Shown one piece after another: positions 21,891-49,678 of a stretch of 64,000 bases of DNA. The position numbers and the translations under genes were made by a program. The notes under the pieces were generated by a model that ran no database searches, was not told the DNA's origin, and was given only the letters and a program-made list of their open reading frames with translations. The DNA is from Carboxydocella thermautotrophica (GTDB taxonomy: Bacteria; Bacillota; GCA-003054495; Carboxydocellales; Carboxydocellaceae). Within the stretch, counting starts at the first letter, position 1. The number at the start of each line of letters is the position of its first letter. Where the stretch lies: assembly GCA_003054495.1 (NCBI GenBank), contig CP028514.1, positions 1,651,501 through 1,715,500 of the forward strand, read 5' to 3'.

Positions 21891-21893
21891 AGC

Positions 21894-23228: not shown

Positions 23229-23268
23229 GTCTCCCCATCCTTTCATTAAGTCTACTTCCGTATCAAAT

Positions 23269-24653: not shown

Positions 24654-24683
24654 AAAAAAGAATCCGGTCTATATTCCGGATTC
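24654..24683 (-). terminator. Terminator after the B12-binding radical SAM gene
   Basis: GAATCCGG and CCGGATTC (24660-24683) with TTTTTT following on the minus strand. The rSAM stop codon lies in the loop. It closes the operon that begins at NHL protein 1. Confidence 0.8.
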
Positions 24684-26123
24684 CAATAGCTCCAGCGCTT
24701 TTTGCATGGCAGCAGGCAAAAGCCCCTCCCTTTGCATATGGCGCCGTAAAAAGGAGTTATTGATCATAACCTGGAGAGAACGCAGCATATATTCCCGTTT
24801 AAACCTATCACGAATAGCTGGATAAGTTTCAATTCTTTCCAGATAATATTCTTTATAACATTTCAGGACAGCCTGAGCCAGCTCCTCTACTTCCATTTGC
24901 CTGGGCTTGATCACCGGCTCAACAAAATTATACTTACTGTAGTCCTGCTCAATAATAAATGGTTTCAATTCAGGATAAAGGTCAGCATAAGGCCAGGGTG
25001 CCAGCAATAAGAAGTGGGCGAAATCCGGATTGTAGTGCTTGGCTAATTCCAGAGTCTGGTCTATATGTTCCGGCGTTTCTTCCGGGGTTCCAAGCACAAA
25101 GGAACATTCGCTGATAATATTGGCCTCATTAAGTAACGCCAAAGCCTCTCTGCCCTGTTCACAGGTGATGGATTTTTTGAATTGATCCAGACTGGCCTGG
25201 TCGGTAGCCTCTACCCCTACATAGACATGGATAACCCCCGCTGCCCGGTATTTATCAAGAATATCCCGGTCCCGCAAAACATCGCTGACACAGGTCTCCA
25301 GCAGGAGATACATGCCCACCTGTCGTTCCAGCAGCAGATCCAGGATTTTTTCCCAGCGCTCCCGGTTACGGGTAGGATATTCATCAGAAAGCATCACCAC
25401 ATTGACCCCGTAGGTCTGTTTCAGATGCTCCAGTTCACTGACAAAGCTCTCTGCACTGCGTTCCCGGTAGCTCTGTTGCCAGAATTTTTGCTGAGAACAA
25501 AAGGCGCACTGATGGGGACAACCCCGGCTGGAATTGACCAGACCCAGACGGGAGCCGGGTAGAACATAAAAAGTATAGTCCTCCCACTCGACCAGATCCC
25601 AGGCCGGAATCAGCCGGTCCAGGTCAGGCAGAAAAGGTCTGGCTGGATTAACGATGATTTCTCCCCGCTGGTTGCGCCAGGCAATGCCTTTTACCTGAGC
25701 CAGTTTCTTTTCATCAGGCCAGCTGTCCAGCAATTCCGGCAGGGTCTCTTCTCCCTCTCCCCGCACTACTACGTCAACCCAGGGCCAGTCCTTCAACATT
25801 TCCTCGTACATAAAGTTAGCATGGATACCGCCAAACACTGTCAGAATCGATGGATCAACGGCTTTAGCCACTTGTAAAACCTGGCTGGCAGCTGGCGCTG
25901 AGGCTGTATAGGAGGTGGTCCCCACTACCCGGGGCCTTTCCTGTTCAATCCTGGCTTTAATCTGCGCCAGGTCATGCCCTTTAGTCATGGCATCATAGAT
26001 AACCACTTCATGCCCGGCCGCCCTCAAATGCCCGGCCAGGTAAACTAGACCAAGGTTAGGCCAGGAACCAGCTGCTTCCACCACGCCGGCATGATAAGAC
26101 GGAGTGATTAACAATACTTTCAT
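24669..26123 (-). CDS. B12-binding radical SAM protein, BchE-like family
   Basis: A 484-residue cytoplasmic protein. An N-terminal cobalamin-binding fold comes first (PNLGLVYLAGHLRAAGHEVVIYDA; VVGTTSYTASAPAASQ; FGGIHANFMYEEML). The radical SAM domain has the cluster motif CPHQCAFC near residue 200, MLSDEYPTRN and VGVEATDQASLDQF. The group includes BchE (an anaerobic ring cyclase), methyltransferases and other tetrapyrrole or lipid enzymes. The substrate is unknown. It is last in the operon that also encodes NHL protein 1, a 6-haem protein, the 2792-residue cytochrome and two ResB/CcsA pairs. Modification of haem, cytochrome or quinone is therefore worth considering, but nothing in the sequence proves it. 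Confidence 0.82.
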   Translation of the reverse strand: MKVLLITPSYHAGVVEAAGSWPNLGLVYLAGHLRAAGHEVVIYDAMTKGHDLAQIKARIEQERPRVVGTTSYTASAPAASQVLQVAKAVDPSILTVFGGIHANFMYEEMLKDWPWVDVVVRGEGEETLPELLDSWPDEKKLAQVKGIAWRNQRGEIIVNPARPFLPDLDRLIPAWDLVEWEDYTFYVLPGSRLGLVNSSRGCPHQCAFCSQQKFWQQSYRERSAESFVSELEHLKQTYGVNVVMLSDEYPTRNRERWEKILDLLLERQVGMYLLLETCVSDVLRDRDILDKYRAAGVIHVYVGVEATDQASLDQFKKSITCEQGREALALLNEANIISECSFVLGTPEETPEHIDQTLELAKHYNPDFAHFLLLAPWPYADLYPELKPFIIEQDYSKYNFVEPVIKPRQMEVEELAQAVLKCYKEYYLERIETYPAIRDRFKREYMLRSLQVMINNSFLRRHMQREGLLPAAMQKALELLESGI

Positions 26124-26468: not shown

Positions 26469-27260
26469 CTATTTCAAATGTTCATGAATGGATTGATAGA
26501 TGTATGGGACGCCAAAATAGGCAAATATAATCAGAACAAATGCCCCTATCGCCAGCCAGGCCGCCTTTTCGCCACGCCAGCCATAAGTGAAGCGTAAATG
26601 CAGTACCAGTCCGTAAATCAACCAGCTAATCATCGCCCAGGTTTCTACAGGGTCCCAGGCCCAGTATCGGCCCCAGGACTGGTTGGCCCAGAGGGCCCCG
26701 GTAATCATCATGATAGCCAGCATTAAAAAGGCCAGGGCCAGGAAACGATAGGTTAGATCATCTACTTCAGCCACATTGTTGCCTTTCCGCTTGTGCAGCA
26801 AATAGTAGGCTCCTGTACCTGCCGCCAGCAAGGCACTGCCATAGGCCAGTTTAGCGAACAACACGTGCAGGTAGAGCCAGAAACTACGGTAGGTTAGAGG
26901 AATGCTTTCCATCTGGTCTGAATTTAAAACTGCCGCTCCCAAAGCCAGCATAGTAGCCGGCGCAACAAATAAAAGCAAAGTTCTAAAGCGGGGCTTATAA
27001 TAGCAAAGCCAGAGGAAACCAGCCATGCCCGCCCAGGCATCAGCAGGAACTACTTCCGCAAAATCGACATACGGCCCATGACCGACCCGGTACCAGCGAT
27101 AGAGTAAAGCCGCAGTGTGCGCAAGAAAACCGGCAGTGGCTAAGTACAAATCCAGCCTGCCCTGTTCTTTTTTCCAGATGATTTTTACAGCTGACATAAA
27201 AAGGGAGCCAGCATACAACAGTACAGCCAGCCAGTAGAAAATAACTTCGACTTTACTCAC
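26469..27260 (-). CDS. CcsA-type cytochrome c synthase subunit, pair 2
   Basis: A 263-residue, eight-helix protein of the CcsA/ResC family with the haem-site motif WGRYWAWDPVETWAMISW near residue 195. Helix-flanking histidines are present (HTAALLYRW, HVLFAKLAYGSA). The GTG start at 27260 overlaps the resB-2 stop by eight bases and has AGGAG upstream. It is shorter and diverged from pair 1. It is one of three CcsA copies encoded inside the cytochrome island. Confidence 0.9.
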   Translation of the reverse strand: MSKVEVIFYWLAVLLYAGSLFMSAVKIIWKKEQGRLDLYLATAGFLAHTAALLYRWYRVGHGPYVDFAEVVPADAWAGMAGFLWLCYYKPRFRTLLLFVAPATMLALGAAVLNSDQMESIPLTYRSFWLYLHVLFAKLAYGSALLAAGTGAYYLLHKRKGNNVAEVDDLTYRFLALAFLMLAIMMITGALWANQSWGRYWAWDPVETWAMISWLIYGLVLHLRFTYGWRGEKAAWLAIGAFVLIIFAYFGVPYIYQSIHEHLK

Positions 27261-28437
27261 CCAGTACCTCTCCTTTTTGCATTACTTGCCGCAGTTCAGC
27301 CACTATCCCGCTCTGCCATTGTTTCCGTCTGGCTTTCAAAATCCAATTCCCTTTTTCTTCGTTCAGTACTATTTCCAGCGGCGGCCGGAATAACCAGAAG
27401 AACAAAGCGATTATACCTGCGGAACTACCAGCCACAATCCAGTACAGCCCCGGGTCTTTTACCAGCAAAAATGACGCCCAGTAACGCAAATCGATAAAAG
27501 CGACAGTTAGGCCTTGCGGTAAGGTTCTGGTTTCCCCCTGGTTTAATGGCAGACCATTGACTAACAGCTGCTGGTTTTTTTGATCATAAGCAAGGGAAAG
27601 GGCTTGTTCACCGGGCAGCTTTATTTCACCCTGCCCGCTTTCTTCCTTAATGGCAACATAGCCAGCCAGCAACACCTTGGAGCCTTCTTTCACTTCCAGG
27701 CCGGGAGCATAACCGCTCCGGGCCAGATAGAGAGTATAGCCATGCCATTGCAGATTCTCATTCACAGCTATTTTTTCCCGGGCCAGCACTTCTCCCTTGC
27801 TGGTTAGTCTGACCACATAGGCTGCCGGTTCAGTTGCATTAGCATCAAACTTATCCAGGCCCAGATATTCTGCCGGAAATTTAATGTCCGCCCAGGGGCC
27901 CTTTTTTATTTCTTCCAGCTGTTGTTGGCCGGTGAAGGCCTGTCCTTCAGTCAAGGAAACAGTAGCCTGAACGCGCAAAAGATAGGTGACTGCGCCGCCA
28001 ATGATAATCAGGATGAGCGCCAGATGAAAAAGGGGAATGGCAAAAAGGCTAACAGGATGGCGCAGCCAGCCCTGGTTAACCTGTTTTAGCCCTGCTTTTT
28101 GCCACCAATTATCTGCTGGTTTTTGCTTCAACTTCACTGGCTGCCAGCGGCCACCAATGCCGCCGCGACACCATTGTTGATACGCCAGTGCAAACTGTTG
28201 CAAGAGTGAATAAAGTGCCACCAGGGCAAAAACTCCTACCCCCAGTTTAAAAGGCCAGGTAGCAGCAAAATGAGTTAATCCCAGCCGGTCAACCCAGACT
28301 GCCCAGCTTCCGTTGCTGGCCACCCATTTAGCGATACCATTGGCCCCGTAGATGTTTTCCTGAGGAACCAGAACTAGGATTAGGATAAAAACCAGCAAAA
28401 TAAACCAGAGAGCAATGGTAAGTCGGCGGATGTTCAT
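27253..28437 (-). CDS. ResB-like cytochrome c biogenesis protein, pair 2
   Basis: A 394-residue ResB relative. It has an N-terminal helix (RLTIALWFILLVFILILVLV), a second near 55-80, a third in HPVSLFAIPLFHLALILIIIGGAVTYLLR, and an extracytoplasmic beta-rich domain (about 165-335). The last helix is WIVAGSSAGIIALFFWLF. The sequence is much diverged from resB pair 1 and lacks part of its N-terminal membrane region. The ATG at 28437 has TTGAGGTG upstream, the same start context as resB pair 4. It overlaps ccsA-2 by eight bases, so the two are clearly coupled. Confidence 0.85.
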   Translation of the reverse strand: MNIRRLTIALWFILLVFILILVLVPQENIYGANGIAKWVASNGSWAVWVDRLGLTHFAATWPFKLGVGVFALVALYSLLQQFALAYQQWCRGGIGGRWQPVKLKQKPADNWWQKAGLKQVNQGWLRHPVSLFAIPLFHLALILIIIGGAVTYLLRVQATVSLTEGQAFTGQQQLEEIKKGPWADIKFPAEYLGLDKFDANATEPAAYVVRLTSKGEVLAREKIAVNENLQWHGYTLYLARSGYAPGLEVKEGSKVLLAGYVAIKEESGQGEIKLPGEQALSLAYDQKNQQLLVNGLPLNQGETRTLPQGLTVAFIDLRYWASFLLVKDPGLYWIVAGSSAGIIALFFWLFRPPLEIVLNEEKGNWILKARRKQWQSGIVAELRQVMQKGEVLGE

Positions 28438-28445
28438 GGCACACC

Positions 28446-29270
28446 TCAACTCATATATTCTGAATGAACAGTATCATAAAGGTAAGGAACTGCAAACAAT
28501 GTGATCAGTAAGATTAATAAAGAGAGCAAGTTCAGCAGGGCAGCCCGCCGCGGCTTGCCTCCAGTAAAGCGGTAATGCAAGTATAAACCATAAAGCAGCC
28601 AGGAAATCAGGGACCAGGTCTCAATGGGATCCCAGGCCCAGTAGTACCCCCAGGCCTGGTTGGCCCAGATAGCCCCGGCCACAATCATTACTCCCACCAT
28701 TAAAAAAGCAAAGGCCGTCAGGCGATAACTATAGTAATCCAGCCAGTTTGGTTCTGGCACCCGCTGCAGCCAGCCGGACTTTGTGCTGCCTGTTTTCAAC
28801 AAATAGATAGCAGCCAGGGCAGAACTGAGCAGCGCGCTACCATAGGCGAATTTGGCAAAAATGATATGAATGATTAGCCAGATAGTCTGAAAGGTAGCCG
28901 GGATCTGGCTGATTTCCCGGGACGAAAGCAGGGCCCAGCCAGAAAACACCAAGGTAAGTGGATAAACGAATAATGCTGCTGGCATTAGCCTGGGCAGGCG
29001 CCAGAGCAAGAGCATGAACAGAGCAGCTCCAACCCAGGCATCAGAGGAAACAATCTCGTAAGTTTGTAAATAGGGACCATGACCTGTGGCTAGCCAGCGC
29101 AGAATTATCGCTATCCCATGGGGAACAAGCGCCAGGACAAAGATTATATTGCAGGCCCGCTGTAAATTCTGCTTGGTCCACACGACTCCAATTGCTGCCA
29201 GCACAGTTGCAGCCGCATATAAAATAACTGCCAGCCAGAAAAGAGTGATTTCTGCTACTTCAATGTTCAT
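28446..29270 (-). CDS. CcsA-type cytochrome c synthase subunit, pair 3
   Basis: A 274-residue CcsA homologue, eight helices. The haem motif WGYYWAWDPIETWSLISW is near residue 205. FAKFAYGSALLSSALAAIYLL and a C-terminal HY-x-FTGGKPRRAALLN segment match the other copies. The AGGAGG before the ATG lies in the end of resB-3; the genes overlap by 11 bases. It lies immediately upstream of resB-2, making the order resB3-ccsA3-resB2-ccsA2. Confidence 0.9.
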   Translation of the reverse strand: MNIEVAEITLFWLAVILYAAATVLAAIGVVWTKQNLQRACNIIFVLALVPHGIAIILRWLATGHGPYLQTYEIVSSDAWVGAALFMLLLWRLPRLMPAALFVYPLTLVFSGWALLSSREISQIPATFQTIWLIIHIIFAKFAYGSALLSSALAAIYLLKTGSTKSGWLQRVPEPNWLDYYSYRLTAFAFLMVGVMIVAGAIWANQAWGYYWAWDPIETWSLISWLLYGLYLHYRFTGGKPRRAALLNLLSLLILLITLFAVPYLYDTVHSEYMS

Positions 29271-30471
29271 TCTCTGTCCTCCTCAGGGGAAATGTGGACC
29301 AGGTATATAAATATATTACTTCCTTTTCCCCCTCATGTCCAATGCACGCAAAAGAAGCGGGCAACAGATAATGCCCTGCTAGAGCTCCTAAACCCAGCCA
29401 GAAGGCTATAAAAATCAGAACCATGCCATAATCTTTAATAATTTTCACCTGGAGATAATAGCGAAAATCACCTGTTTTAATTTTAAATTGCCCCAGGTCA
29501 CCGGAACTGTGCAATGGTAAAACCAGGGACTGTCCTCCTGAACTGATTTTTACCAGCGGTTCACTGGGGTACATAAACTTGTCCGGTTTTCCCCAGTCTG
29601 CATCCTGCCCCCGGGGTAAAAATTCTATCTCTATTTCTCTCCCATCAGGCAATATCAGAGAGTCACGACTGAACTTCTGGTCTCCCCTGGTGATAGTGGC
29701 CAGGGAGACATAGCCGCTGAGCAGGAGCTGGTCTCCCTGGCTGAGTTCTAGATAGGGAGCAAAACCGAAATCCCAGACATTGAAATCATGGCCATAGTAG
29801 CTCACAGGGGGTACCTTGCTTAACTTTCCTGATTTGACTTGAACATCATTGTGCCAGAGCTTAAATTGCCCCTGGACATCCTGGGGCCAGCCCTGGGCTG
29901 GATAGTTAACATGAATTTGCTCCACTTCCAGTCGCCACTGTTCCGTATTCAGGCGACCATAGGGCCCCTGTTGCAAAAGGGAGAAGCTTTCCCTGGTCAA
30001 GGGTACCTGTTCCCCTGCCGTAACCGGAACCAGGCCTTCGATACGGCCCCAGGCACTCCAGAGATAACCAAGTCCTATTAATAAGAAGGAGAAATGAAAA
30101 AGAATGATAAAAGTCAACCCATAGAGGCGACGAGCCCAAACTACGGGACCTAAAGGCCGGAACCCCTGCCGGATCAGCCAGTCCCTGGCAGTTCCTTCTA
30201 CCCATAACCGCTCCCGCCAGCGGTATTTCCTCTCGGTAATCCTTAATTTCCTGTACAAGCGCCATCGCTTACGTATCTGTGCTACCATGCAGGCTGCTGT
30301 GTTGATAAGCAGTAAAACCAGCAAAACTTGTAGAGGTGTGCTGCGAAAAAAACCGGTATCATACTGTCCGCTGGGCAGACCGCGGGCTACACCCAGGAAG
30401 ATATACAGGCCCAGGGCAATGATTAAGATATAGGCCACTTTTTTGGATTTTAGTAATTGATAAATCAACAT
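29260..30471 (-). CDS. ResB-like cytochrome c biogenesis protein, pair 3
   Basis: A 403-residue ResB relative. Helices are at KVAYILIIALGLYIFLGVA and PLQVLLVLLLINTAACMVA. A third, IILFHFSFLLIGLGYLW, holds the likely haem histidine, and the last is MVLIFIAFWLGLGALAGHYLL. In between is a beta-rich outer domain with NVWDFGFAPYLEL. AAGGTGATGTT precedes the ATG. It follows the 2792-residue cytochrome by 58 bases that hold a GC-rich hairpin. Position suggests it serves that cytochrome. Confidence 0.85.
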   Translation of the reverse strand: MLIYQLLKSKKVAYILIIALGLYIFLGVARGLPSGQYDTGFFRSTPLQVLLVLLLINTAACMVAQIRKRWRLYRKLRITERKYRWRERLWVEGTARDWLIRQGFRPLGPVVWARRLYGLTFIILFHFSFLLIGLGYLWSAWGRIEGLVPVTAGEQVPLTRESFSLLQQGPYGRLNTEQWRLEVEQIHVNYPAQGWPQDVQGQFKLWHNDVQVKSGKLSKVPPVSYYGHDFNVWDFGFAPYLELSQGDQLLLSGYVSLATITRGDQKFSRDSLILPDGREIEIEFLPRGQDADWGKPDKFMYPSEPLVKISSGGQSLVLPLHSSGDLGQFKIKTGDFRYYLQVKIIKDYGMVLIFIAFWLGLGALAGHYLLPASFACIGHEGEKEVIYLYTWSTFPLRRTENEH

Positions 30472-30529: not shown

Positions 30530-33500
30530 TTAACTGCCACTGGTTCGGGAAGTTCTGGTGGTATGACTGCCACAGGTTCCCTGTAACAAGTAGCACCCGT
30601 TCTTAGAACCAATGTTAGATGGATAGTATTCGGCAATTGCCCGGCCGCGAATGAACTTGCCATACCCGTTCCAGGTAAAACCGTGCATATAGCCTTTAAC
30701 ACTCGGGTCACCATGGCATTCATAACAACCATTGCTGGTTTTGTGATCCCCTTTACTATGATTGGAGAACCGTGAACCAGTACTTGTAGTGTAACCATAG
30801 GATGTCGGCTTATGGCACAAGGTACAGTGCTTTACAATCAGCGGCGCACTGCTAACTGCAGTATCCGTACTGAGCTTCAGGTTATATGGATTGCTGACAT
30901 CAGTACCAGTATGGGTATAGTGGCAATCAGAGCACAAAACTTTTCCCTGCCCAGCCGGAGGAGTCCGGTTCAGGATATTGAGACCATAAGTAGTAAGAGT
31001 GGTAGAGTTAACATAAGTATTGGTCCCTTTTACCCCGAACACACCGTGGTGCGAATCATGAGTGGTCTGGAAGCGACTGCGTACATCCGACCAGCCCGTG
31101 GGCAAGGTGGTCTTGCTGCCAAAAGTACTGTGACACTTGATACATACTTCATACTGGAAGTCAGCTACCTGTTTGAAGTTACCATTGACGTCAATCCCCG
31201 AAGCTTTCAGGTTGTCCCGAACGAAAGTGTCTTTTGTCTTCAGGATGTGCGTATTATGACAGTCTACACACTGTACTGTCTTGGAGTTATCATCATAGTT
31301 CATCTGAGCCGGGTCCTGGCCGGGCACATGGCGGGCAATGTAATTAGGATCTTTAACCGTATGCCCTACCGTGCCATCGAACTGACCAGCCACATTCTTG
31401 CTTGAGGGGCCTGTACCATCATGACAGGTGAAACACAGGTCTGAAGCTGGTTTCAAGGTCGAGCTCTGGTAACCTGAGCCATGGGGATCATGGCAGTTAT
31501 AACAGGCACCTGCTGCATTACTGGCCTGGGTATAATTACCACCCTCTGTTCCGCCCGGCCATTTGGCATTGGCATTAGAGCCATGGGAGCTGACAGAGAA
31601 CAGGCTCTGACCGGCTATCTTCACAGCCGGATCCACCAGTTCGGTATCTGGAATGGTGTTATCATTATTATTGGTACCACCTTTCCAGTAGACGGTCGGA
31701 TAACCAGGAGCAGCAGCTTCGTACCAGTAAACCCCTGTTCCATAAACCTTTTTCACCAGGGCCACACTGTCATGGCAATTATAGCAGAGCTCGTTATTGT
31801 CCGGATTTTTCAACAACTGCTTCGGATAAGGATTGCCCGGATTGCTCGGGTCCTCCTTGCCATGAGGGCTGTGACAGTTCATACAGTTACCGGGAACAAA
31901 CATGGCCGATTGCCCTGTGGCTGAATCATACCACTTAGCTTTGCTGGCATGTTCCGAGGCATTATAGGCTGCCTTACCCCGGAACCAGTAAGTTTGAGCA
32001 ATCACTTCTGGCTTATCATGGCACCAGAAACAAACACTGTTCTTCAAACTATTACCATTGCTGTCTACAGCATCGGTATTCATGGGCAATTTCAACATGC
32101 TGCCATAATCGGTGCCATGGGGATCATGGCAGTTGGTGCATTCACTGGGTGCAGATTCGTTATCCCAGCGGACCAACAAGTTATTTTTATTGCCATGGGC
32201 AGTTTTGTTGTAAATGGTAAAACCATTCCAGGCACCAAAACTTACAGCAGCATGACATCCTTCACAGAGAGCATTGACACTGATAAAGGTATCAGCACCC
32301 ACCGTAAAGCGATAGCTATCCAGGGTCGAAGCTCTGGTCACACTCACGCCATCTCCGCCATGCTCTGTCGGCACAAACTTACCGTGCGGAGTATGACAGT
32401 TAAAGCATTTACCAGCATAAGTCGCTTTATCGGCTGCACTATTGGGATCCCTGGTGCCCCCGGTTCCATAGCTATTCGGGAAAACTATGGGCGTTCCGGA
32501 AGGCGAATCTGTGGTCCGGCTGTGCGCCGACATTTCAAAGGTACGGCGACCGGAATATTTGTAATTGCTGGAGGCGTTGGTGTGACAATCAAAGCACAGT
32601 TCATTATCCTTGGCTTTCTTCAGCAAGCTGGGATACTGAGAACCATGGGGCACATGGCACTTGGTACAGTTACCATAGTAAATACTGCCATCACTAAAGG
32701 TGTCCACCGGTACATCCACGTTATGTTTGCTACTGTTATAAGATGTACCGATTACAGGCGCCCCAGGCGGTGAGCCGGTGCCGTCGTGACAGGTCATACA
32801 CAGGGCTCGCTCCAGTGATGCCATGGGATCAACCAGAGTCAAAGCTGTTACCTTGGTACTGAAACTGGATTCGTTCCCCTCCAGGTCAAAGGCTGTAACG
32901 TAGTAACTATAACTGGTGGTACCTTTGAGATAGAGGTCCGTCCAGGTAGTACCGGTAGTGGAACCCACCTTCAAAGGTTGACTGAACCCGGGCACAATCC
33001 GGTAGATGTTATAGCCCACTACTCCATCAGCAGCGCTAGCCGGAGCCCAGGTTAACTCTACGGCCATACTGCCGGTGACAATATCCTTGATGGGAGTAGC
33101 ATTAACCCCTGCCGGAGGAGGCGGAGCCACATTATCCACCGGCTCAGCAGCAGTTGTTGTCGTTACAGCAGCACCGGTTGAAGCATTGCCACTCAAATCA
33201 AAGGCACTGACACGATACCAGTACTGGGTATTTCCTTTTAAGCCGCTATCAGTAAAGCTCAAGTTTGCCGCATCCACCGAGCCTACCTTGATGTAGTTAG
33301 TCCCATCACTGCTGCGATAGATACTATAGCCAGCCACATCATCGGCAGGAGTGGACGCCGACCAGTTTACAACTACACTGTTGCTGCCAGGCTGCAAGCT
33401 GCTAATCGTCGGCGCTGAAGGCGGAGTAGTATCAACGGCATAATTCTTCAGCAGCTTGTATTCATTGACCAACGTGGTGCCGCCGGTGTTGCGTACCCGG

Positions 33501-36500
33501 ATATACAAAGAATACCAGTCTCCGGCATTCAGGCCACTGGGCCAGGTCACCTGGAAGCGGATATAGTTACCGTTATAAGCTACGTTGCTGGCAGTCAAAG
33601 TGGCTGCTGTAGTTCCATCCATTCTGTATAGAGTTGCAGTAGTGGTGCCGATAGTACCATTGACATTGGCCGAAACTTCACCATAAACAACCTGCCCGGC
33701 CTGGAACTCCAGCTTTTCTGTCGTATAGCCACTATCTTCATATGTGCGATAATGTTCGGTAGTTGCTGCAATTTCCACCGCCTCATAAGCCCTAATTGTA
33801 CCTGCTCCGCTTGAGACCTCAACCAGGAAATAGTAGAGACCCGGGGTCGAACGGGTAAAGGTCACCTCATAAGTGTAAGGTGCGCTAGTACTGGTCTGGC
33901 TCATAGTATAAGTTGCTAACTGCCCGCCAGTCTTACTGTAAACAATTACCCGCCGCGTAGTAGCATTATTAATGGTACTGGTAGTCACCTTAACCCGGAT
34001 ATTAGTGCCAGCCGGGAAAATATTGGTGCGACCGTTCTGATAGTCAAAGAATTCGACCACATTGCTACCCGACTTGTAAAGTCCATTGGTTACAGGTATA
34101 GTTGCAGTTGGTGTAGTGACCGAGGCAACATTGCTATAACCGGATTCATTACCAGTGCCGCCTAAATCCAGGGTTTTATCGATTGCCGTAACTTTATACC
34201 AGTAGGTTGTATTGGGCAAAATGCCATTATTCAAGCCCGGTGCATCCACAAAACTGGTAGTACCGCTAAAGCCAATGCGGCTAAAGTTAGTGCCATCTGT
34301 ACTGCGATAGATATAATATCCTTTCACCCCGGAGGCGTCAGTACTGCGCGACCAGGTCAGACTGATCCGGGCACTATTCAGGGCTACCGCCTTCAAGTCA
34401 GCAGGCGCACTGGGAGCAGTTGTATCCGAAGTATAGGCTGGTGATACGTTCACGGTTGTATTCAGCCAGGTACTATTACCTGCTCTGTCAAAGGCCTTAA
34501 TCTTATAAGTAAATGGTGGTGTGCCTCTTACTGCGCCATCATAGAAGGACACTGTACCAGTAGTGCTGGTGTTATTGATCACCCCAATAGCATTGGCATC
34601 GGTGAAATCATTACGGTAGATATAGTATCCAAAAATGTCACTGGAATCAGATGGAGTCCAGCTGACCTTCACCAGACTCTTGGCCAGCGCCTGGGCACTT
34701 AAACCGCTGGGAGCATTAGGTGGTGTTACATCACCACTGGCACCAGTGCGGTCTTTGATCAAATCCGCTTTCGGGTTATGGGAATGAGGTTTATGACAAT
34801 TGGTCATACAGGTATTGGTATCAGGTGACAGCGCATCAGTTATTTTATGGTAGGACACAATCGTACTGGTTGTCGTCCTGCCACCTTGCCCGTCAGGCCA
34901 GGTGTTTTGAGTTCCATCCCACAAACCGGCTAACTGGTCTATATTGGGCGCTAAAGCGCTGGACCCGCCATGACATTTGTAACAATCCTTGTTGGACCCC
35001 ACCGGCCGCGGGTCATGGGGGTTATGACAGGCCATACAGTTAGCGGTGCTTACTGCCGTATGCTCACTCAAAGTAATACCACTCTTGGGCCCTACCAGGG
35101 GCAATTCAGCAAGATCAATCTGGCCGCCAGGCAGATCGGGATCAACCCAGCGCACAAAATCCGCACTGGCATCCTGGTTATTGGGCAAATGGCAAACCGT
35201 ACAAAAAGGACGGCGGCTGTCATTGCTGCCAATATTGCTGGGGAAAGTGCGTAACTGGTTGGTATCCCCATTAGTATAGATGGCTTCACTGACATCAGCA
35301 TCCCGCAGGTACTTTGTATTGGAAGTTCCATGCGGGAAATGACAATCGGCACATTTCAGCTTCTTGGTTGGGTCGCTTTTTAGATAATGGCCATAAGCCT
35401 GATACAATGTCTTGATATTGCTAATCGTAGCCCCATTACCATCAGTATGCAGACCATCATGACATTGATAACACAGAGTATCGCCATTGGCCCACTTCAA
35501 CAAAGGCTTATAATCAGAACCGTGAGGATTATGGCACTTGGTACAGTTATTGCCGAAACCACTGCCGTCACTGTAGGAGTGTTCCTGTTTCACGTAATCA
35601 TGGGGCTTACCCGCATATTTCAGCATGTCAATCCGCGGCTGTGGTCCCGGTGCCCCGTTTGTATCATGGCAATTGAAGCACAGGGTCTTTTCATCTACCG
35701 CCTTGATATTATTGGAACGCGGATTATGCGGGTGAGCCAGGTGACATTTGGTCATACAATCATTGGTATCAGCTGTGTTGGGATCATAAATCTTATGACG
35801 GCTGATTTTCCCTGCACTCAAAGTTCCTTCTTGCCCCATCAATGCCTCGATATTATAGGCCTCACCCCGTTTGCCATGGCAGAGATAGCAATCGGCATTA
35901 GAGCCTGTAGCCGGCCAGGGCTTATGAGGATCATGACAGATATCGCATTTATCCGTTGATGTACTGCTATGAGAAGCAATGCTGGCCGGCAACGGTTTGA
36001 TAGTGATTTTATAGCTGTTAGCCGGCTGGTCACTGGAAGTCACTTTGATAGTATTACCGGTATAGTAGACACGGCTGGGCTGGTCTGAAGTCGGGTGACA
36101 GACCAGGCAAAACTCCCTGACGTTAAAACTACTGCCGGTCTTATTGGTCGGCCAGGCCGTTCCGGCAAACTGCAAGGTACCGTATTTGTCCCGATCCCAG
36201 AGATACTTGGCGTTGGTCGTACCATGAGGGCTATGACATTCGGTACATAGCAGTTTTTTGGTAGAATCTACAGACTTGATAAAATGGCCGGCAGAAGTCT
36301 CAGCATAATAGAGCTTCCGAATATCCTGTTTGGCCGGATAACCATCATGGCAATCCAGACAGGCATTTACCTTACCAACATCAGTATCAGCATCAATCGC
36401 ATGAGTATCGGTAGTATCAATATCCCGCCGCAGCAAACGCACGTTAGTCGAAGCATGGTGTTCATGGCAGACCAGACAGGGCTGATCCTTGCTTACCCCA

Positions 36501-38908
36501 TCAGCAGTAGTGCCATATTTACTGTTGCTCCGGCTCAAGCTGGCATGGGGCTTGCCGGTAAAGTTGGCCTGATAATCCTCGGTAATATGCCTGGTAGTAC
36601 CATGACAGGTAAAACACCAGTCGCGATACTCGGTTGTAGCAAAATTGGGCACACTGACCGGGTCCGGCGTAACCGCTGTCCCTGAGACAGGGTCGGTCCA
36701 GGCGACCGGGTTTTTCAAACCATAGGGGTTAGAACCCGTATGTTTGGTATGATCCGGTTCGTGGCAGGTATCACAGGATACCTTTTTGCCACTGGATGTA
36801 CCCGCATAAATAATGGGATGGGATGAGTTTTTGTCAAATTCATTCTGGTCATGGCAGGCTGCACAGTTCAGAGCAGGACCTGCATAAGGATTACGCAAAT
36901 ATCCTTTTGGCGTATGGTTAGCTTTACAATTCAAATAACAGGCATAGCCGGTGGCATTGCCCTGGCTGTCGGTACCGGTAGCATAAAAGGCCAGACGGCC
37001 ATTGGCCGGACTCACCGCATTGAGGAGATAAGACCAGTCAAAACTGATATTGACCGGGTTATTCAAATTCCAGTTAGAGTTATTTACTTTGGTTCCGTTC
37101 TTATAGGCATTGGTATTACTTAGATCAAAATACTGGTTACTACCTGTATGAGGATCATGACATGTCCGACAAGAGAGTTTATAACTATTCACGTGCCAGT
37201 GATAGTTGCGACCATTGCCATTGCCGAAACGGCTACCTACAATGGGGTTACTGCCATTATTCCAGTAATAACGGTAGTCATGGCATTTAAAACACAACTC
37301 ATTACGGTTATGAGTTACTGCCGTCGGATAAGGTTTGTTAACAAAAGGTGCTGTAATCATAAATTGATATTTTGAGCCATGGGGTTCATGGCACATCATA
37401 CAGCCATTCCAGGCCGCAAACTTCTGGTCATGGATTGAACCTGTAAAAGCATTACTGGAATTATAGATCTTGTTTTGCGAACTATATTGGTAATAATTAA
37501 AACCTTTACTAACATGACAGTTAATACAAAGATTGGCCTTATTCTCCCAGCGCAAAAGCGGGTAATTAGAGGAACCATGAGGTTTATGGCAATTCAGACA
37601 GGCGATCATGGTTCCGGTTGCAGATTCGCCAGTAATGGGCTCTCGCTCCACCATGGCGATCCCATCAGTCTGGGGGCTGCTGGTCGGTGCCACCGGATTC
37701 AGGTTAGCATCAACGCTGGCATATTGCATTAAACTATTGGGGTCATTGCCAATATTATGAACGGAATTAGCAAAAAAAGTCTGATGATCAATTCCAAAAG
37801 GCCTGGGTAGATCCGAAGGAGCTCCGTGACAGGTCCAGCAGACATCATTGCCACTATAATTAGGGCCTTTGAGCGTCCCGTTAACATTGCGCTGGGCTGC
37901 CAGCAAGCGAATGGAGCCGTTTTTCTTTCCCGTTACTGCACTGGTAGAGTCTGTGTTGCTGAAGTGGGGATTGTGACAATCCTGACAAAAGGTTTTGCCC
38001 TCCGGCACCTTATGGTGGGAGGTATTAACCTGAACATCAAACTGGCTTTTGACATCATAAATTGAAGCTGTACCGTCATGGCAGACATAACAGGTCTCAG
38101 CAACAGTGTCTTTCAAGACCAGCTGATAACCATGGGCTGAATGGGTAGAATGACACAGTTTGCAAAGGTCCTGCCGCCCCGGGTCAGTAAACTTGCCATG
38201 GGGCTGCAGAGTTGGTGTAGCGACAACCTTCACAGTAACTGCCTGTTGAGCATAAGCCAGATTGCCGGTACTATCGCGGCCTATCCCCTGCACATAAATA
38301 GTATAAACCCCTTGAGTAGCCGGGGGAATCAGTTTAACCTTAAATACTTCATCATGAAGTTTACGGTTACGGTCTCCGGGAGTTCCATTGCTACCATCAT
38401 CCAATGTAACCCCCTGCTGATTAACCGGAGTAGAATTAGCAGGAAAATCAGTAACAAACATAAAAGGACTATACAAAGGCGCATTTTTGGCTGTATCCTG
38501 TTTGGCAACAGCCCAGGGGGTCAGATCAGATTGGCCATTATCACTCCAGGGAGTATCAGGATTAGCCACTTGCCACTGGTAAGTAGCAGGTACCTGGACG
38601 GCACCTGCTACAGTTCCGTTTAATCCGTAGCCCAATCCTGTGACCCGATAAGTAATCTCAAGCGCCTGACCAGCAGTAAGGCTGACTTCAGACACTGCTC
38701 CCTTACTTGTTCCGTTGACAGATACATCCAGGAGCGTCACAGTTCCCCCGCCCCTGGTATCATGACAGGAATTACAATAATTCTTCTCACTGGCGGTATC
38801 CAGTTTGCCATTCGGCCAGGCCCAGGCCCAGCTGATAAAGGCGAGCCAGCACCCGACGGTCAGGAGGAATATATTAAATTTTCCAGTAGACAAGACTGTT
38901 TTTTTCAT
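30530..38908 (-). CDS. Giant secreted multihaem cytochrome with four Fn3 domains (42 CXXCH + 3 unusual sites)
   Basis: A 2792-residue exported protein. Signal peptide 1-30 (ending WAWAWP). Haem domain A (about 44-1385) holds 26 CXXCH sites plus CX3CK (CYLNCK) and two CX3CH sites (CMTKCH, CMTNCH). Then come about 640 residues of beta-sandwich: four Fn3 domains (each with PP/AP-x-AP and GYYIYR or GYNIYR) around a 200-residue non-Fn3 segment. Haem domain B (about 2040-2700) has 16 CXXCH sites. Many haems are in CHNPHGS or CHDPHGT doubled motifs. The C-terminus ends in a C-x6-C-G-x-H tail. It has no sortase or S-layer anchor. AAGGAGG precedes the ATG. It likely conducts electrons across or beyond the wall. 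It is cotranscribed with a 6-haem protein and ResB/CcsA pairs 3 and 2. Confidence 0.92.
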   Translation of the reverse strand: MKKTVLSTGKFNIFLLTVGCWLAFISWAWAWPNGKLDTASEKNYCNSCHDTRGGGTVTLLDVSVNGTSKGAVSEVSLTAGQALEITYRVTGLGYGLNGTVAGAVQVPATYQWQVANPDTPWSDNGQSDLTPWAVAKQDTAKNAPLYSPFMFVTDFPANSTPVNQQGVTLDDGSNGTPGDRNRKLHDEVFKVKLIPPATQGVYTIYVQGIGRDSTGNLAYAQQAVTVKVVATPTLQPHGKFTDPGRQDLCKLCHSTHSAHGYQLVLKDTVAETCYVCHDGTASIYDVKSQFDVQVNTSHHKVPEGKTFCQDCHNPHFSNTDSTSAVTGKKNGSIRLLAAQRNVNGTLKGPNYSGNDVCWTCHGAPSDLPRPFGIDHQTFFANSVHNIGNDPNSLMQYASVDANLNPVAPTSSPQTDGIAMVEREPITGESATGTMIACLNCHKPHGSSNYPLLRWENKANLCINCHVSKGFNYYQYSSQNKIYNSSNAFTGSIHDQKFAAWNGCMMCHEPHGSKYQFMITAPFVNKPYPTAVTHNRNELCFKCHDYRYYWNNGSNPIVGSRFGNGNGRNYHWHVNSYKLSCRTCHDPHTGSNQYFDLSNTNAYKNGTKVNNSNWNLNNPVNISFDWSYLLNAVSPANGRLAFYATGTDSQGNATGYACYLNCKANHTPKGYLRNPYAGPALNCAACHDQNEFDKNSSHPIIYAGTSSGKKVSCDTCHEPDHTKHTGSNPYGLKNPVAWTDPVSGTAVTPDPVSVPNFATTEYRDWCFTCHGTTRHITEDYQANFTGKPHASLSRSNSKYGTTADGVSKDQPCLVCHEHHASTNVRLLRRDIDTTDTHAIDADTDVGKVNACLDCHDGYPAKQDIRKLYYAETSAGHFIKSVDSTKKLLCTECHSPHGTTNAKYLWDRDKYGTLQFAGTAWPTNKTGSSFNVREFCLVCHPTSDQPSRVYYTGNTIKVTSSDQPANSYKITIKPLPASIASHSSTSTDKCDICHDPHKPWPATGSNADCYLCHGKRGEAYNIEALMGQEGTLSAGKISRHKIYDPNTADTNDCMTKCHLAHPHNPRSNNIKAVDEKTLCFNCHDTNGAPGPQPRIDMLKYAGKPHDYVKQEHSYSDGSGFGNNCTKCHNPHGSDYKPLLKWANGDTLCYQCHDGLHTDGNGATISNIKTLYQAYGHYLKSDPTKKLKCADCHFPHGTSNTKYLRDADVSEAIYTNGDTNQLRTFPSNIGSNDSRRPFCTVCHLPNNQDASADFVRWVDPDLPGGQIDLAELPLVGPKSGITLSEHTAVSTANCMACHNPHDPRPVGSNKDCYKCHGGSSALAPNIDQLAGLWDGTQNTWPDGQGGRTTTSTIVSYHKITDALSPDTNTCMTNCHKPHSHNPKADLIKDRTGASGDVTPPNAPSGLSAQALAKSLVKVSWTPSDSSDIFGYYIYRNDFTDANAIGVINNTSTTGTVSFYDGAVRGTPPFTYKIKAFDRAGNSTWLNTTVNVSPAYTSDTTAPSAPADLKAVALNSARISLTWSRSTDASGVKGYYIYRSTDGTNFSRIGFSGTTSFVDAPGLNNGILPNTTYWYKVTAIDKTLDLGGTGNESGYSNVASVTTPTATIPVTNGLYKSGSNVVEFFDYQNGRTNIFPAGTNIRVKVTTSTINNATTRRVIVYSKTGGQLATYTMSQTSTSAPYTYEVTFTRSTPGLYYFLVEVSSGAGTIRAYEAVEIAATTEHYRTYEDSGYTTEKLEFQAGQVVYGEVSANVNGTIGTTTATLYRMDGTTAATLTASNVAYNGNYIRFQVTWPSGLNAGDWYSLYIRVRNTGGTTLVNEYKLLKNYAVDTTPPSAPTISSLQPGSNSVVVNWSASTPADDVAGYSIYRSSDGTNYIKVGSVDAANLSFTDSGLKGNTQYWYRVSAFDLSGNASTGAAVTTTTAAEPVDNVAPPPPAGVNATPIKDIVTGSMAVELTWAPASAADGVVGYNIYRIVPGFSQPLKVGSTTGTTWTDLYLKGTTSYSYYVTAFDLEGNESSFSTKVTALTLVDPMASLERALCMTCHDGTGSPPGAPVIGTSYNSSKHNVDVPVDTFSDGSIYYGNCTKCHVPHGSQYPSLLKKAKDNELCFDCHTNASSNYKYSGRRTFEMSAHSRTTDSPSGTPIVFPNSYGTGGTRDPNSAADKATYAGKCFNCHTPHGKFVPTEHGGDGVSVTRASTLDSYRFTVGADTFISVNALCEGCHAAVSFGAWNGFTIYNKTAHGNKNNLLVRWDNESAPSECTNCHDPHGTDYGSMLKLPMNTDAVDSNGNSLKNSVCFWCHDKPEVIAQTYWFRGKAAYNASEHASKAKWYDSATGQSAMFVPGNCMNCHSPHGKEDPSNPGNPYPKQLLKNPDNNELCYNCHDSVALVKKVYGTGVYWYEAAAPGYPTVYWKGGTNNNDNTIPDTELVDPAVKIAGQSLFSVSSHGSNANAKWPGGTEGGNYTQASNAAGACYNCHDPHGSGYQSSTLKPASDLCFTCHDGTGPSSKNVAGQFDGTVGHTVKDPNYIARHVPGQDPAQMNYDDNSKTVQCVDCHNTHILKTKDTFVRDNLKASGIDVNGNFKQVADFQYEVCIKCHSTFGSKTTLPTGWSDVRSRFQTTHDSHHGVFGVKGTNTYVNSTTLTTYGLNILNRTPPAGQGKVLCSDCHYTHTGTDVSNPYNLKLSTDTAVSSAPLIVKHCTLCHKPTSYGYTTSTGSRFSNHSKGDHKTSNGCYECHGDPSVKGYMHGFTWNGYGKFIRGRAIAEYYPSNIGSKNGCYLLQGTCGSHTTRTSRTSGS

Positions 38909-38935: not shown

Positions 38936-40180
38936 TTAGGGATTATCAGTTTTCTGATGGCAATCCTCACAGATCACCATACCAGGGGCGCGTTTTAAAG
39001 CGGTAGATAAACGCCCACTTCTGGTAATATTTTGTTCAACCACAGTAGTGCCATGAGCGCGATGACAGGTCAGGCAGACCACCAGATTGCCATTTTCATA
39101 CGGATAATTTCCTCGCGGTGTCAAACCATTGTAACTGTTAGGAATATTTACGGCATGCATAACAAAATCTATGGAATTTGCATTCAAGTCATAGCCTGTT
39201 TGCTCGGTAAATTTGGCCAAACGATGTCCACTCCCGGCTTTCTGGTTAAAGTCACTGTGACAGGTACCACAGAAATATACAGTACCACTCACATATTTTG
39301 GTATTTCCTGATTGGTACCAGTATCGGTTACGGCGTAGCCAATAATAGCGTTAGTTTGTTCTCCACTACTTGACCCTACCAAGCTTTTTAACAACCGATA
39401 ATTACCATTATCATGAGGGTTGTGACAACTAGTGCAATCCAGCTGCCTGGCCATGAAAAATGAGTCATAAATCATTTCCCCTGGTGCCTCCCCATGGGGG
39501 GTCCCGACATTGTGGACCGAAGTGGGTACCGCAGTGATAGCAGCACTGCCATTGTAATCGTAATATACCGCAGCATAAACCTCAGCAGTAGTATTGCTGG
39601 CAGGTGGCAGAGTACCAAAAGGCCCACTGGATGTAGGAGCAAGTACAGAACCTGGCAGGGTAACTGTGCCATTTAAGACATTATACTTACTCTGAGTGCC
39701 ATCATGACAAACCAGACAGGTACGGGTTCCTGTTTTTTGTGTCAAAAGTTTGGGGCCTTCGGCTGCGTGGGTAACATGACAACTGGCACATGCCCCTAAG
39801 TTTTGATCATAGTAGTCATGGGGACTGGTATTAGGGGGAAATGCCTTCCCGATAGGAGACTCAATAGTAGTAGTACCATCCGTCGCTGTCACCTTGTAAT
39901 AGTAATTGCGATAATTCTCCACTCCAGTATCCGCATATTGTGTTGCCGGACCAGTATACAAAGTAGTCCAGGTGGTCCCGTCGGCAGTCCGGCTCAAAGT
40001 GTAGCTGGTAGCCCCAGTTACACTGGTCCAGTAGACTGTTTCCTGGTTATTGCCTCCTACCATCCCGGTGAACCGGATTGTTGCTTCCGGGTCAATTGCC
40101 GCCCAGGCCTGAATAGTATGGAACAGAAGCAACAGGATTGTTATGGCCGTGATTGTACTATATTTAATTATCTTGACCAT
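38936..40180 (-). CDS. OmcS-like hexahaem cytochrome with N-terminal Fn3-like domain
   Basis: A 414-residue exported protein. Signal peptide 1-28, an Fn3-like domain (about 30-112), then six CXXCH sites starting at C131, C155, C249, C304, C369 and C404. The run CASCHVTHAAEG, SVHNV, CTSCHNPHDNG, CGTCH and CLTCHRAHGT parallels the 338-residue hexahaem protein encoded at 52377-53393 and, from memory, the order and spacing in Geobacter OmcS. By that likeness it may polymerise into a conductive filament, with the Fn3 domain as a decoration. It lies between NHL protein 1 and the giant cytochrome, all in one unit. Filament formation is inference. Confidence 0.85.
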   Translation of the reverse strand: MVKIIKYSTITAITILLLLFHTIQAWAAIDPEATIRFTGMVGGNNQETVYWTSVTGATSYTLSRTADGTTWTTLYTGPATQYADTGVENYRNYYYKVTATDGTTTIESPIGKAFPPNTSPHDYYDQNLGACASCHVTHAAEGPKLLTQKTGTRTCLVCHDGTQSKYNVLNGTVTLPGSVLAPTSSGPFGTLPPASNTTAEVYAAVYYDYNGSAAITAVPTSVHNVGTPHGEAPGEMIYDSFFMARQLDCTSCHNPHDNGNYRLLKSLVGSSSGEQTNAIIGYAVTDTGTNQEIPKYVSGTVYFCGTCHSDFNQKAGSGHRLAKFTEQTGYDLNANSIDFVMHAVNIPNSYNGLTPRGNYPYENGNLVVCLTCHRAHGTTVVEQNITRSGRLSTALKRAPGMVICEDCHQKTDNP

Positions 40181-40197: not shown

Positions 40198-41151
40198 CTA
40201 TTTCAAGACTACAATCCGGTCATTTTCCCGGTCAGTTATATAAATTCTGCCTGTGCCATCAGTCGCTACCCCATTGGGAAAGCGAAAAGGATCTCCTTCC
40301 TTAAAGCCAGCAATCTGTCCGACCAGTTTAAAATTAGCATCCAAAACTATCACAGCCTGTTGCATCGTATCCACTACAATCCAGGCATTTCTTTCCCGGT
40401 CAAAGGTAATTCCCCGCGGTAGTACAAACCCTATTCCTTCCTTAATGGTCTTTACATGTTTACCGTTATCCGCATTGAAAACTTGCAAGCGTCCATTGTT
40501 GGAATCTGCCACTATCAGCAAGCTCTCATCTTCATTTAGGGCTATCCCGTTAGCATAGGATAAACCTCGCTCACCCGAACCTGGTTCTCCGATTCTTTTA
40601 ACCACCCTGCCCTGTTCATCTAAAACCAGTACTTGCTGACTTAATAGATCTGATACATATAATAAACCTTTACTGTTTAATGCAAGGGCCACCGGACGAA
40701 GATTGTTTTTACTATCCCTGGGCCAGGACTCCAGGTATTTCCCTTCCTTATCAAGTACTACAATCCGATTATTATTCAAATCAGCAACAAAAATTTTACC
40801 AGCACCAGCAGCAACAGCTACTGGGTAATTAAATTTATCGGGGCCGTTACCAAAACTGCCAACGCTTTTTAACTTTTTTCCATTGCGATCAAACCAAACT
40901 AGCCTGTGTTTGGCAGAATCAGCAACAATAATTTTATTGCCATCAACCCCCACTCCCAGGGGTTTTAACAGTCCGGTTTGTTTATCATTGCCAAAGGCAA
41001 ACAATCCCTGGGGCAATGAATGCACTGGCTGCGTAATCGATTCCAGTGGGTTTTGTTTAGTCAGGTAGAAATAAAAGAATATGCTCATGCTGATTATAAT
41101 CAGCGTTAGTATGATGATCACTAGTTTATCACGGCTGATAGTTTTAGTCAT
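40198..41151 (-). CDS. NHL-repeat beta-propeller protein 1, membrane-anchored
   Basis: A 317-residue protein with one N-terminal helix (about 9-29) and six NHL-type blades. Examples are FGNGPDKFNYPVAVAAGAGKIFVADLNNNRIVV and GIALNEDESLLIVADSNNGRLQV. The ATG at 41151 is supported by GAGGTGGC upstream. It would face outward. It is first in the operon, directly before the hexahaem protein. The same NHL-hexahaem pairing recurs at 52377-54464, so a chaperone or assembly role for the cytochrome is the best guess; NHL proteins usually bind partners and lack catalysis. Confidence 0.85.
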   Translation of the reverse strand: MTKTISRDKLVIIILTLIIISMSIFFYFYLTKQNPLESITQPVHSLPQGLFAFGNDKQTGLLKPLGVGVDGNKIIVADSAKHRLVWFDRNGKKLKSVGSFGNGPDKFNYPVAVAAGAGKIFVADLNNNRIVVLDKEGKYLESWPRDSKNNLRPVALALNSKGLLYVSDLLSQQVLVLDEQGRVVKRIGEPGSGERGLSYANGIALNEDESLLIVADSNNGRLQVFNADNGKHVKTIKEGIGFVLPRGITFDRERNAWIVVDTMQQAVIVLDANFKLVGQIAGFKEGDPFRFPNGVATDGTGRIYITDRENDRIVVLK

Positions 41152-41201
41152 AATTGCCACCTCGAGGATGTAATTTAGTTCACAATTTACCTTACTACAT
41201 T

Positions 41202-41238: not shown

Positions 41239-41267
41239 AAAAAGCCGGATTAAACTCCGGCTTTTTT
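41239..41267 (-). terminator. Terminator after the LuxE-like gene
   Basis: AAAAAGCCGGA and TCCGGCTTTTTT form a strong stem (41239-41267) with a T-run on the minus strand. It overlaps the stop region of the LuxE-like gene and separates it from the NHL1 promoter. Confidence 0.85.
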
Positions 41268-42446
41268 CAAGATCTGGTCCATTACTGTCGAACAGGCATG
41301 GGAGTGGGCCAGCATTCCATCTACTACCGTGGAACAACGGTGTCCTAACCCGAGAGCAAAATCCTTCACTGAGGTGACCTGTTCAGCACGCCCTATTATT
41401 TCAAATCCATTTGCAGTCAAATAGCCCAGATTATCAGTCTGTACAGCCAGTACAGTGGCCCGGTTGGTCAAATCATAGTGGCGGATTAGCCCGATCTCCC
41501 CTGGCGGTAAAGGCTGCCCGGTACGCAATCCAACCACAACTGTCCTGGTCCAGGGAGGAGTAATTTTTTGTCTTTCCACATTTGTCCGTCCCTGCAATAC
41601 TTCCGCCAGGACATTGTCGATATAATTGGTACCACTTTCACTCATACCCAGGACATTCACACACATATATGCAGGCACGCTCAGGAATTCCTGACAGTTC
41701 TGATAAAACTCTTCTCTGGTCATAGCCCCAAAGGTGCCCTGATAACCACCCCCATCAAGAACCCTGGAACCAGCGGGCAGCTCCAGCCGCAGATTCAGCT
41801 GGCGCAAGTGGTTAAAGAAGAGGACAAAGCCCGATGTAGCACCCACCAGGGCTACAGGTTCTTGACCTTTTACCGCATCTTGCAAAAAGGTCAGTAACCC
41901 ATCCACATCCAGCCCTTGCGTAGAAATAAAATAGCGACTGTCTTCCTTGCCATAATTTTTCACCAACTGGGCCAGACCAAAAGCCATCGCCATCCCTGGG
42001 GCCTGTTCCGGCGGTGGGATCAACATGGCCATGGTCATTTTATCCCGATCAGGAAAACAGTACTTTTTCGTCAGCAACGCATTAGCCTGGATGATATTGG
42101 CCAGACTGGACCGGTCCCGGAAAATTTTTCCCCGCAAATTGGGATCGGAAGTGCCACTGGTCAACAGGGCCAATTCACTCTTCTCTACCGGGATGCTGGC
42201 TACTACCGACTCCTTAAAAGCCTGGGTAGGAATCGCCGGAATCTGGCTCCAGTGGCTGATTTGACCAGGATATTTGCCCAATTGTTCACATAAGTTGCGG
42301 TAATAGTCGTTTGCCTCAAACTGGTAAGCGAAGATTTCCAGCGCCAGGGCATTAAACTCAGCCTCATTAGTTTCCTGCTCCCAGCTGCGGGCAATAAATG
42401 CCGCCACCTTCGCATCCAGCTCTTCAGCCCATTTTGTTAATTCCAT
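41250..42446 (-). CDS. LuxE-type acyl-protein synthetase family protein
   Basis: A 398-residue cytoplasmic protein of the LuxE (acyl-protein synthetase) branch of the adenylate-forming superfamily. Visible marks are IPAIPTQAFKESVVAS, LTSGTSDPNLRGKI (nucleotide loop), LDGGGYQGTFGAMTREEFY, VNVLGMSESGTNYID and a C-terminal GRAEQVTSVKDFALGLGHRC. It would activate a carboxylate as an adenylate and pass it to a protein thiol or other acceptor. The C-terminus repeats CSTV-x-D in two adjacent copies. It is last in the operon of the 1767-residue cytochrome with resB/ccsA pair 4. The link to cytochromes is unexplained. Confidence 0.82.
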   Translation of the reverse strand: MELTKWAEELDAKVAAFIARSWEQETNEAEFNALALEIFAYQFEANDYYRNLCEQLGKYPGQISHWSQIPAIPTQAFKESVVASIPVEKSELALLTSGTSDPNLRGKIFRDRSSLANIIQANALLTKKYCFPDRDKMTMAMLIPPPEQAPGMAMAFGLAQLVKNYGKEDSRYFISTQGLDVDGLLTFLQDAVKGQEPVALVGATSGFVLFFNHLRQLNLRLELPAGSRVLDGGGYQGTFGAMTREEFYQNCQEFLSVPAYMCVNVLGMSESGTNYIDNVLAEVLQGRTNVERQKITPPWTRTVVVGLRTGQPLPPGEIGLIRHYDLTNRATVLAVQTDNLGYLTANGFEIIGRAEQVTSVKDFALGLGHRCSTVVDGMLAHSHACSTVMDQILKKAGV

Positions 42447-49610: not shown

Positions 49611-49678
49611 CCGTTCACCTCCTCTGCTAGTGATGTTATTCACATTCAAACCTTCTCACCTCCTTCTCAATATTTTTT

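Follow-up and report, generated by a model that had tools for sequence, protein, structure and literature searches.

A giant multihaem cytochrome of Carboxydocella thermautotrophica 41T very probably carries two haem sites with a CX3CH motif, a known kind of site that, judging from sequence comparison, is conserved here throughout a new family of giant proteins; a third site with the same spacing, CX3CK, appears to be a species-specific derivative. The gene lies in a 64,000-nucleotide stretch of the genome of this strain (here called the window; all coordinates below refer to it), and reverse-complement translation yielded a single open frame, free of interruptions, for a protein of 2792 amino acids. 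Of the 93 Cys residues in this protein, 84 belong to 42 CXXCH motifs and 6 to three CX3C[HK] motifs, with 1 more in the signal peptide and 2 within the last 21 residues. Matches to Pfam domains (Paired_CXXCH_1, Cytochrome_C7, and MtrC-type) were found along the protein, and the 42 CXXCH motifs neighbor the CX3C sites. The features considered below are collected in Table 1.

Table 1. Features of the giant cytochrome locus (positions in the window)
Feature	Position	Strand	Basis	Remarks
B12-binding radical SAM protein, BchE-like	24669..26123	minus		Conserved in orthologous loci
CcsA, second adjacent pair	26469..27260	minus	Pfam PF01578	WWD motif and His intact
ResB, second adjacent pair	27253..28449	minus	Pfam PF05140	
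CcsA, first adjacent pair	28446..29270	minus	Pfam PF01578	WWD motif and His intact
ResB, first adjacent System II pair	29260..30471	minus	Pfam PF05140	
Giant multihaem cytochrome	30530..38908	minus	ORF and Pfam	2792 aa; 42 CXXCH and 3 CX3C[HK]; fn3 domains separate the haem regions
C-terminal tail CYLLQGTCGSH	30563..30595	minus		Two Cys outside haem motifs; two-Cys tail in all orthologues
Octahaem unit B	34745..35689	minus	Unit alignment	Seven CXXCH and one CX3CH; homologous to unit A
Site 3, CMTNCH (CX3CH)	34793..34810	minus		aa 1367-1372; final predicted haem site of unit B
Octahaem unit A	35690..36625	minus	Unit alignment	Seven CXXCH and one CX3CH
Site 2, CMTKCH (CX3CH)	35741..35758	minus		aa 1051-1056; final predicted haem site of unit A
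Site 1, CYLNCK (CX3CK)	36923..36940	minus	Translation and orthologue alignment	aa 657-662; CX3CH in other species
Hexahaem cytochrome	38936..40180	minus		Conserved upstream neighbor of the giant gene
NHL beta-propeller protein	40198..41160	minus		Conserved upstream neighbor of the giant gene

All three exceptional motifs named in the original prediction (CMTNCH, CMTKCH, and CYLNCK) were confirmed in this one reading frame. The sequence context that the prediction had ascribed to both CX3CH sites, D/N-x-CMT-x-CH-x-x-H-x-HNP, is indeed shared, except that the residue at position -2 is Asn in both cases, so that the context should read N-x-CMT-x-CH-x2-H-x-HNP. Since one-codon insertions arise easily in repeat-rich genes, the three sites might have come about by chance, through errors in sequencing, or as CXXCH motifs decayed at random. 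When all residues lying outside CXXCH motifs were randomized, three CX3C[HK] motifs were obtained in 0, two in 1, and one in 37 of 20,000 shuffles, and no stop interrupts the frame. Identical spacing in seven species, whose genomes were assembled separately, refutes this explanation for sites 2 and 3; no positive support for it was found, and we give it practically no weight.

These relatives were identified by an alignment-based scan of genome contigs, a single-sequence scan having returned none. Orthologues, full length in all but one case, are present in six further species, Thermincola and its relatives, with 45 to 48% identity to the window protein across the region containing the three sites, so that, the window included, the giant protein is found in seven species from five genera and three families. 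Among the contigs concerned are JAENYP010000021 (G012, a Thermincola ferriacetica metagenome-assembled genome [MAG]), JAENZJ010000009 (G131), PHAB01000020 (G186), and JAJZQD010000061 (G284). In the six proteins that are complete and distinct, the count is always 42 CXXCH and 3 CX3C motifs, and the G284 protein, which is ended by a contig edge, retains 35 CXXCH and all three CX3C. Across the seven species, no substitution occurs in any of the six Cys columns of the CX3C sites, whereas of the 12 columns holding unpaired Cys residues outside the C-terminal tail, none is invariant. Sites 2 and 3 have, in addition, an unvarying His following their second Cys. Because the residues between the two Cys vary (site 2 occurs as MTK, MTR, MYR, MQR, VER, and SAD), the feature that has been kept is the spacing rather than the sequence. 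While this conservation is that of a single protein family, and hence does not represent many independent origins, the exact spacing held by relatives in five genera makes sites 2 and 3 very probably working c-haem sites, of a type proven elsewhere in MmcA.

The context common to sites 2 and 3 can be traced to an internal duplication. Two octahaem units, A (aa 762 to 1073) and B (about aa 1074 to 1388), adjoin each other, and their mean identities (66% for A-A, 60% for B-B, and 35% for A-B, the last ranging from 31 to 41%) indicate that the duplication predated the split of the species; the shared context thus reflects homology and not independent convergence. At 35% identity, both units have retained their CX3CH motif. 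An alignment of 14 units revealed, besides the eight invariant motif His, nine further invariant His residues (H30, H56, H101, H120, H210, H225, H281, H302, and H304), two of which directly follow the CX3CH motif (CHxxHxH); with these nine, eight bis-His haems, that of CX3CH included, could each be given a distal ligand. This bears on the possibility that the Cys of each CX3C pair are joined in a structural disulfide or coordinate some metal instead of haem iron. A disulfide within CX3C is sterically possible, and haem occupancy at these sites is read from the protein sequence; however, such roles would leave unexplained why sites 2 and 3 never vary in the His right behind their second Cys, why CX3CH stands eighth in a line of eight evenly arranged haem motifs, and why each unit has invariant His residues sufficient for eight haems. 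We consider a disulfide or another metal improbable.

Site 1 is a different matter. Its last residue, His in the six other species, is Lys in Carboxydocella alone, and about six alignment columns directly following the motif are missing there as well (CYLNCK------ANH versus CAIKCHNYDHYVSG). Although the alignment has no outgroup, a change from His to Lys is the direction to be presumed, because haem motifs as a rule carry His. The proposal that all three are real haem sites with shifted geometry is thus supported for sites 2 and 3, where spacing and His are conserved in seven species, but not for the three as a set, since CX3CK is no conserved lysine site, given the CX3CH of six other species and the local deletion. 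Likewise, a comparison of homologues, suggested at the time as a test of the extra residue, bore out CX3 spacing at all three sites, whereas the Lys of site 1, which in a lysine-type site would be conserved among homologues, is replaced by His in the six other species. The Carboxydocella site may therefore hold a lysine-ligated haem, possibly of a new lysine type, or may be a decaying site that no longer binds haem, and we judge decay to have an even chance. The restriction of Lys to Carboxydocella and the loss of the residues after the motif, including a D-H conserved in the others, speak for degeneration, as does the failure of the one CcsBA studied in vitro to load an H-to-K peptide (PMC8112865). 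On the other hand, both Cys and their spacing persist, and do so in both genomes of C. thermautotrophica, and lysine-type attachment may well be possible in this species. Two NrfA proteins of the genome have CXXCK (CMTCK and CWTCK), and all of its candidate synthases belong to System II: we found five CcsA genes, four of whose ResB-CcsA pairs lie inside the window (among them a general pair at 21057 to 23246), and 0 CcmF-type matches. If those NrfA proteins work, loading of a lysine motif must fall to one or more of the five pairs. The two nrfA loci (L130 and L131; G000:C1, about 597527 to 598681 and 180283 to 181398, respectively) have no CcsA match nearby. A literature search returned no report of CX3CK (CXXXCK) as a haem motif.

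The prediction held that CX3CH and lysine-type sites may need special synthases, and the surroundings of the gene are suggestive. Two tandem ResB-CcsA pairs are located directly downstream (26469 to 30471), and a pair occupies this position in every orthologous locus, one pair there and two in Carboxydocella. Synthase genes do adjoin the gene, but similar pairs also follow many multihaem cytochrome genes without CX3CH. Could the adjacent pair be dedicated to CX3CH, and the second one to CX3CK, in the manner of NrfI and CcsA1 of Wolinella (PMC12285233)? Apart from that precedent, such a division of labor is favored by the doubling of the pair in the very species that has CX3CK and by a CcsA tree in which the CcsAs beside CX3CH cytochromes of other genomes form two clades (support 100/99 each) outside the main group (95/88). 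The window's own two adjacent CcsAs, however, fall inside that main group, on a tree with long branches, and adjacency tracks a C-terminal Cys tail of the cytochrome rather than CX3CH. We therefore regard a synthase dedicated to CX3CH as possible but not supported, and the combined arrangement as unlikely; specificity of the second pair for CX3CK was rejected, since tandem double pairs exist without CX3CK at two other loci (L108 and L115).

The tail in question, with one or two extra Cys residues, was present in 31 of 39 multihaem genes located upstream of a ResB-CcsA pair and in 2 of 31 others (Fisher p = 3e-10, a value that is too optimistic because orthologues were counted and because the loci had been chosen for holding such genes). 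It is often followed by His, as in SGNYSKSNCGSNSSLCGDHKGY, and is a hallmark of multihaem cytochromes whose genes immediately precede ResB-CcsA (L083, L086, L087, L089, L094, L097, L098, L100, L101, L104, L106, L107, L110, L111, and L115); in the window it was also observed at the C-terminal end of a 1780-aa cytochrome (about 44307 to 44350). Possibly, it serves as a recognition tag, an anchor, or a modified tail. In many Bacillota genomes with multihaem cytochromes, a further recurrent neighbor of ResB-CcsA pairs is a BchE-like B12-binding radical SAM protein (L086, L092, L094, L097 to L101, L104, L107 to L109, L111, and L113 to L115; at 24669 to 26123 and 41250 to 42446 in the window), which in some genomes adjoins or is fused with a LuxE-like acyl-protein synthetase and which could modify the haem or the cytochrome. 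In a literature search, no paper was found that connects BchE-like radical SAM or LuxE-like proteins with ResB-CcsA pairs. It is conceivable, though we would call it rather doubtful, that a Cys-tailed substrate, its private ResB-CcsA pair, and the radical SAM protein, sometimes beside or fused with the LuxE-like protein, make up an undescribed maturation module for multihaem cytochromes of Gram-positive bacteria, with the giant protein as one of its members, and that System II of Carboxydocella loads haem on CX3CK. One of the loci with a double pair, L115 (G101:C4), encodes a 1491-aa cytochrome with 18 CXXCH and a C-terminal two-Cys tail; its ResB-CcsA pairs are present in G101 and absent from the window's genome, and the cytochrome resembles a 17-haem cytochrome linked to Fe(III) reduction in strain 019 (PMC6085454).

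Among 73 multihaem ORFs at the loci that were read, the number of residues between the first Cys and CH was two in 1,062 motifs, three in 25, four in 8, and six in 3, with two stray others. Besides the giant family, CX3CH is carried at these loci by one cytochrome of 1473 aa in G058 (L088) and by two in G004 (L099). The trio with six residues comes from three Thermincola genomes and is a single site among orthologues: CFGGGLGCH (CX6CH), possibly a haem motif, is conserved in three orthologous Thermincola-type cytochromes of about 2000 to 2400 aa (L085, L090, and L096). Two further giants encoded next door in the window contain CX4CH motifs in a shared context, three (CWTSNCH, CTNSNCH, and CNNSACH) besides 28 CXXCH in one (49748 to 52237) and one (CWTSNCH) besides 49 CXXCH in the other (44307 to 49649).

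That CX3CH is a known kind of site follows from two other proteins. First, LC-MS/MS proved haem on the CXXXCH of MmcA (PMC11024163), a heptahaem cytochrome of Methanosarcina acetivorans with five CXXCH, one CXXXCH, and one CXXXXCH, which likewise places such a site within a multihaem electron conduit but differs in its archaeal Ccm system, its 7 haems, and its unrelated size; the giant protein, by comparison, combines System II, 45 sites, and a CX3CH ending each octahaem unit. Second, a conserved CX3CH among six CXXCH is characteristic of ImcH, an electron-transfer cytochrome of Geobacter, and its homologues (PMC6295460); whereas ImcH, a protein of the inner-membrane quinol oxidase type, has its CX3CH next to a transmembrane domain, the giant protein is secreted. 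Unusual motifs handled by System II, one of them with Lys, are known from Wolinella succinogenes, namely the CXXCK of NrfA (with NrfI) and the CX15CH of MccA (with CcsA1) (PMC12285233; PMC3601427), but those bind catalytic haems and have dedicated synthases established by genetics, while the giant has CX3 spacing and candidate synthases only. Finally, the surface cytochromes OcwA, CwcA, ImdcA, and PdcA come from the same kind of organism, Thermincola, and T. ferriacetica MAGs encode giant orthologues; with 6 to 10 haems, the described proteins are smaller in haem number, and the giant is not among them in the parts of the literature that we consulted. A PDB sequence search gave a single, weak match (multihaem 6r2q_A), no relatives were found in the plasmid collection or in the viral collection, and structure predictions for the region with the three CX3C sites and for one octahaem unit gave no usable fold (mean pLDDT of 30 and 36, respectively).

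A surface electron conduit would fit with the leader peptide and fn3 domains of the protein and with the hexahaem cytochrome and NHL propeller encoded beside it; considering its family as well, the giant cytochrome is probably an extracellular electron conduit. C. thermautotrophica has 30 multihaem cytochromes, and strain 019 reduces Fe(III), while 41T does not (PMC6085454). Taking the evidence together, we are fairly confident in the following account: a secreted cytochrome with about 45 sites, in which both CX3CH motifs are real c-haem sites. At sites 2 and 3, both Cys would be thioether linked to the haem vinyls, with the next His as axial ligand; the extra residue would make for a longer loop, under selection since before the tandem duplication into two octahaem units ending in CX3CH. 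Haem would be inserted by System II (ResB-CcsA), and site 1, CX3CH elsewhere, would in Carboxydocella either hold a lysine-ligated haem or be losing its haem.

Haem counts that rely on CXXCH miss real sites, then, and for this family the number is very probably 45 (44 if site 1 is lost) instead of 42. In the giant family, nature supplies CX3CH sites together with CXXCH controls on a single polypeptide and with System II genes adjoining, and site 1 of Carboxydocella provides a natural His/Lys difference at one position. Lysine-motif haem attachment in System II organisms other than Wolinella has been stated to be unknown (PMC12285233); Carboxydocella, which has NrfA proteins with CXXCK and no more than five candidate synthases, makes that question directly testable.
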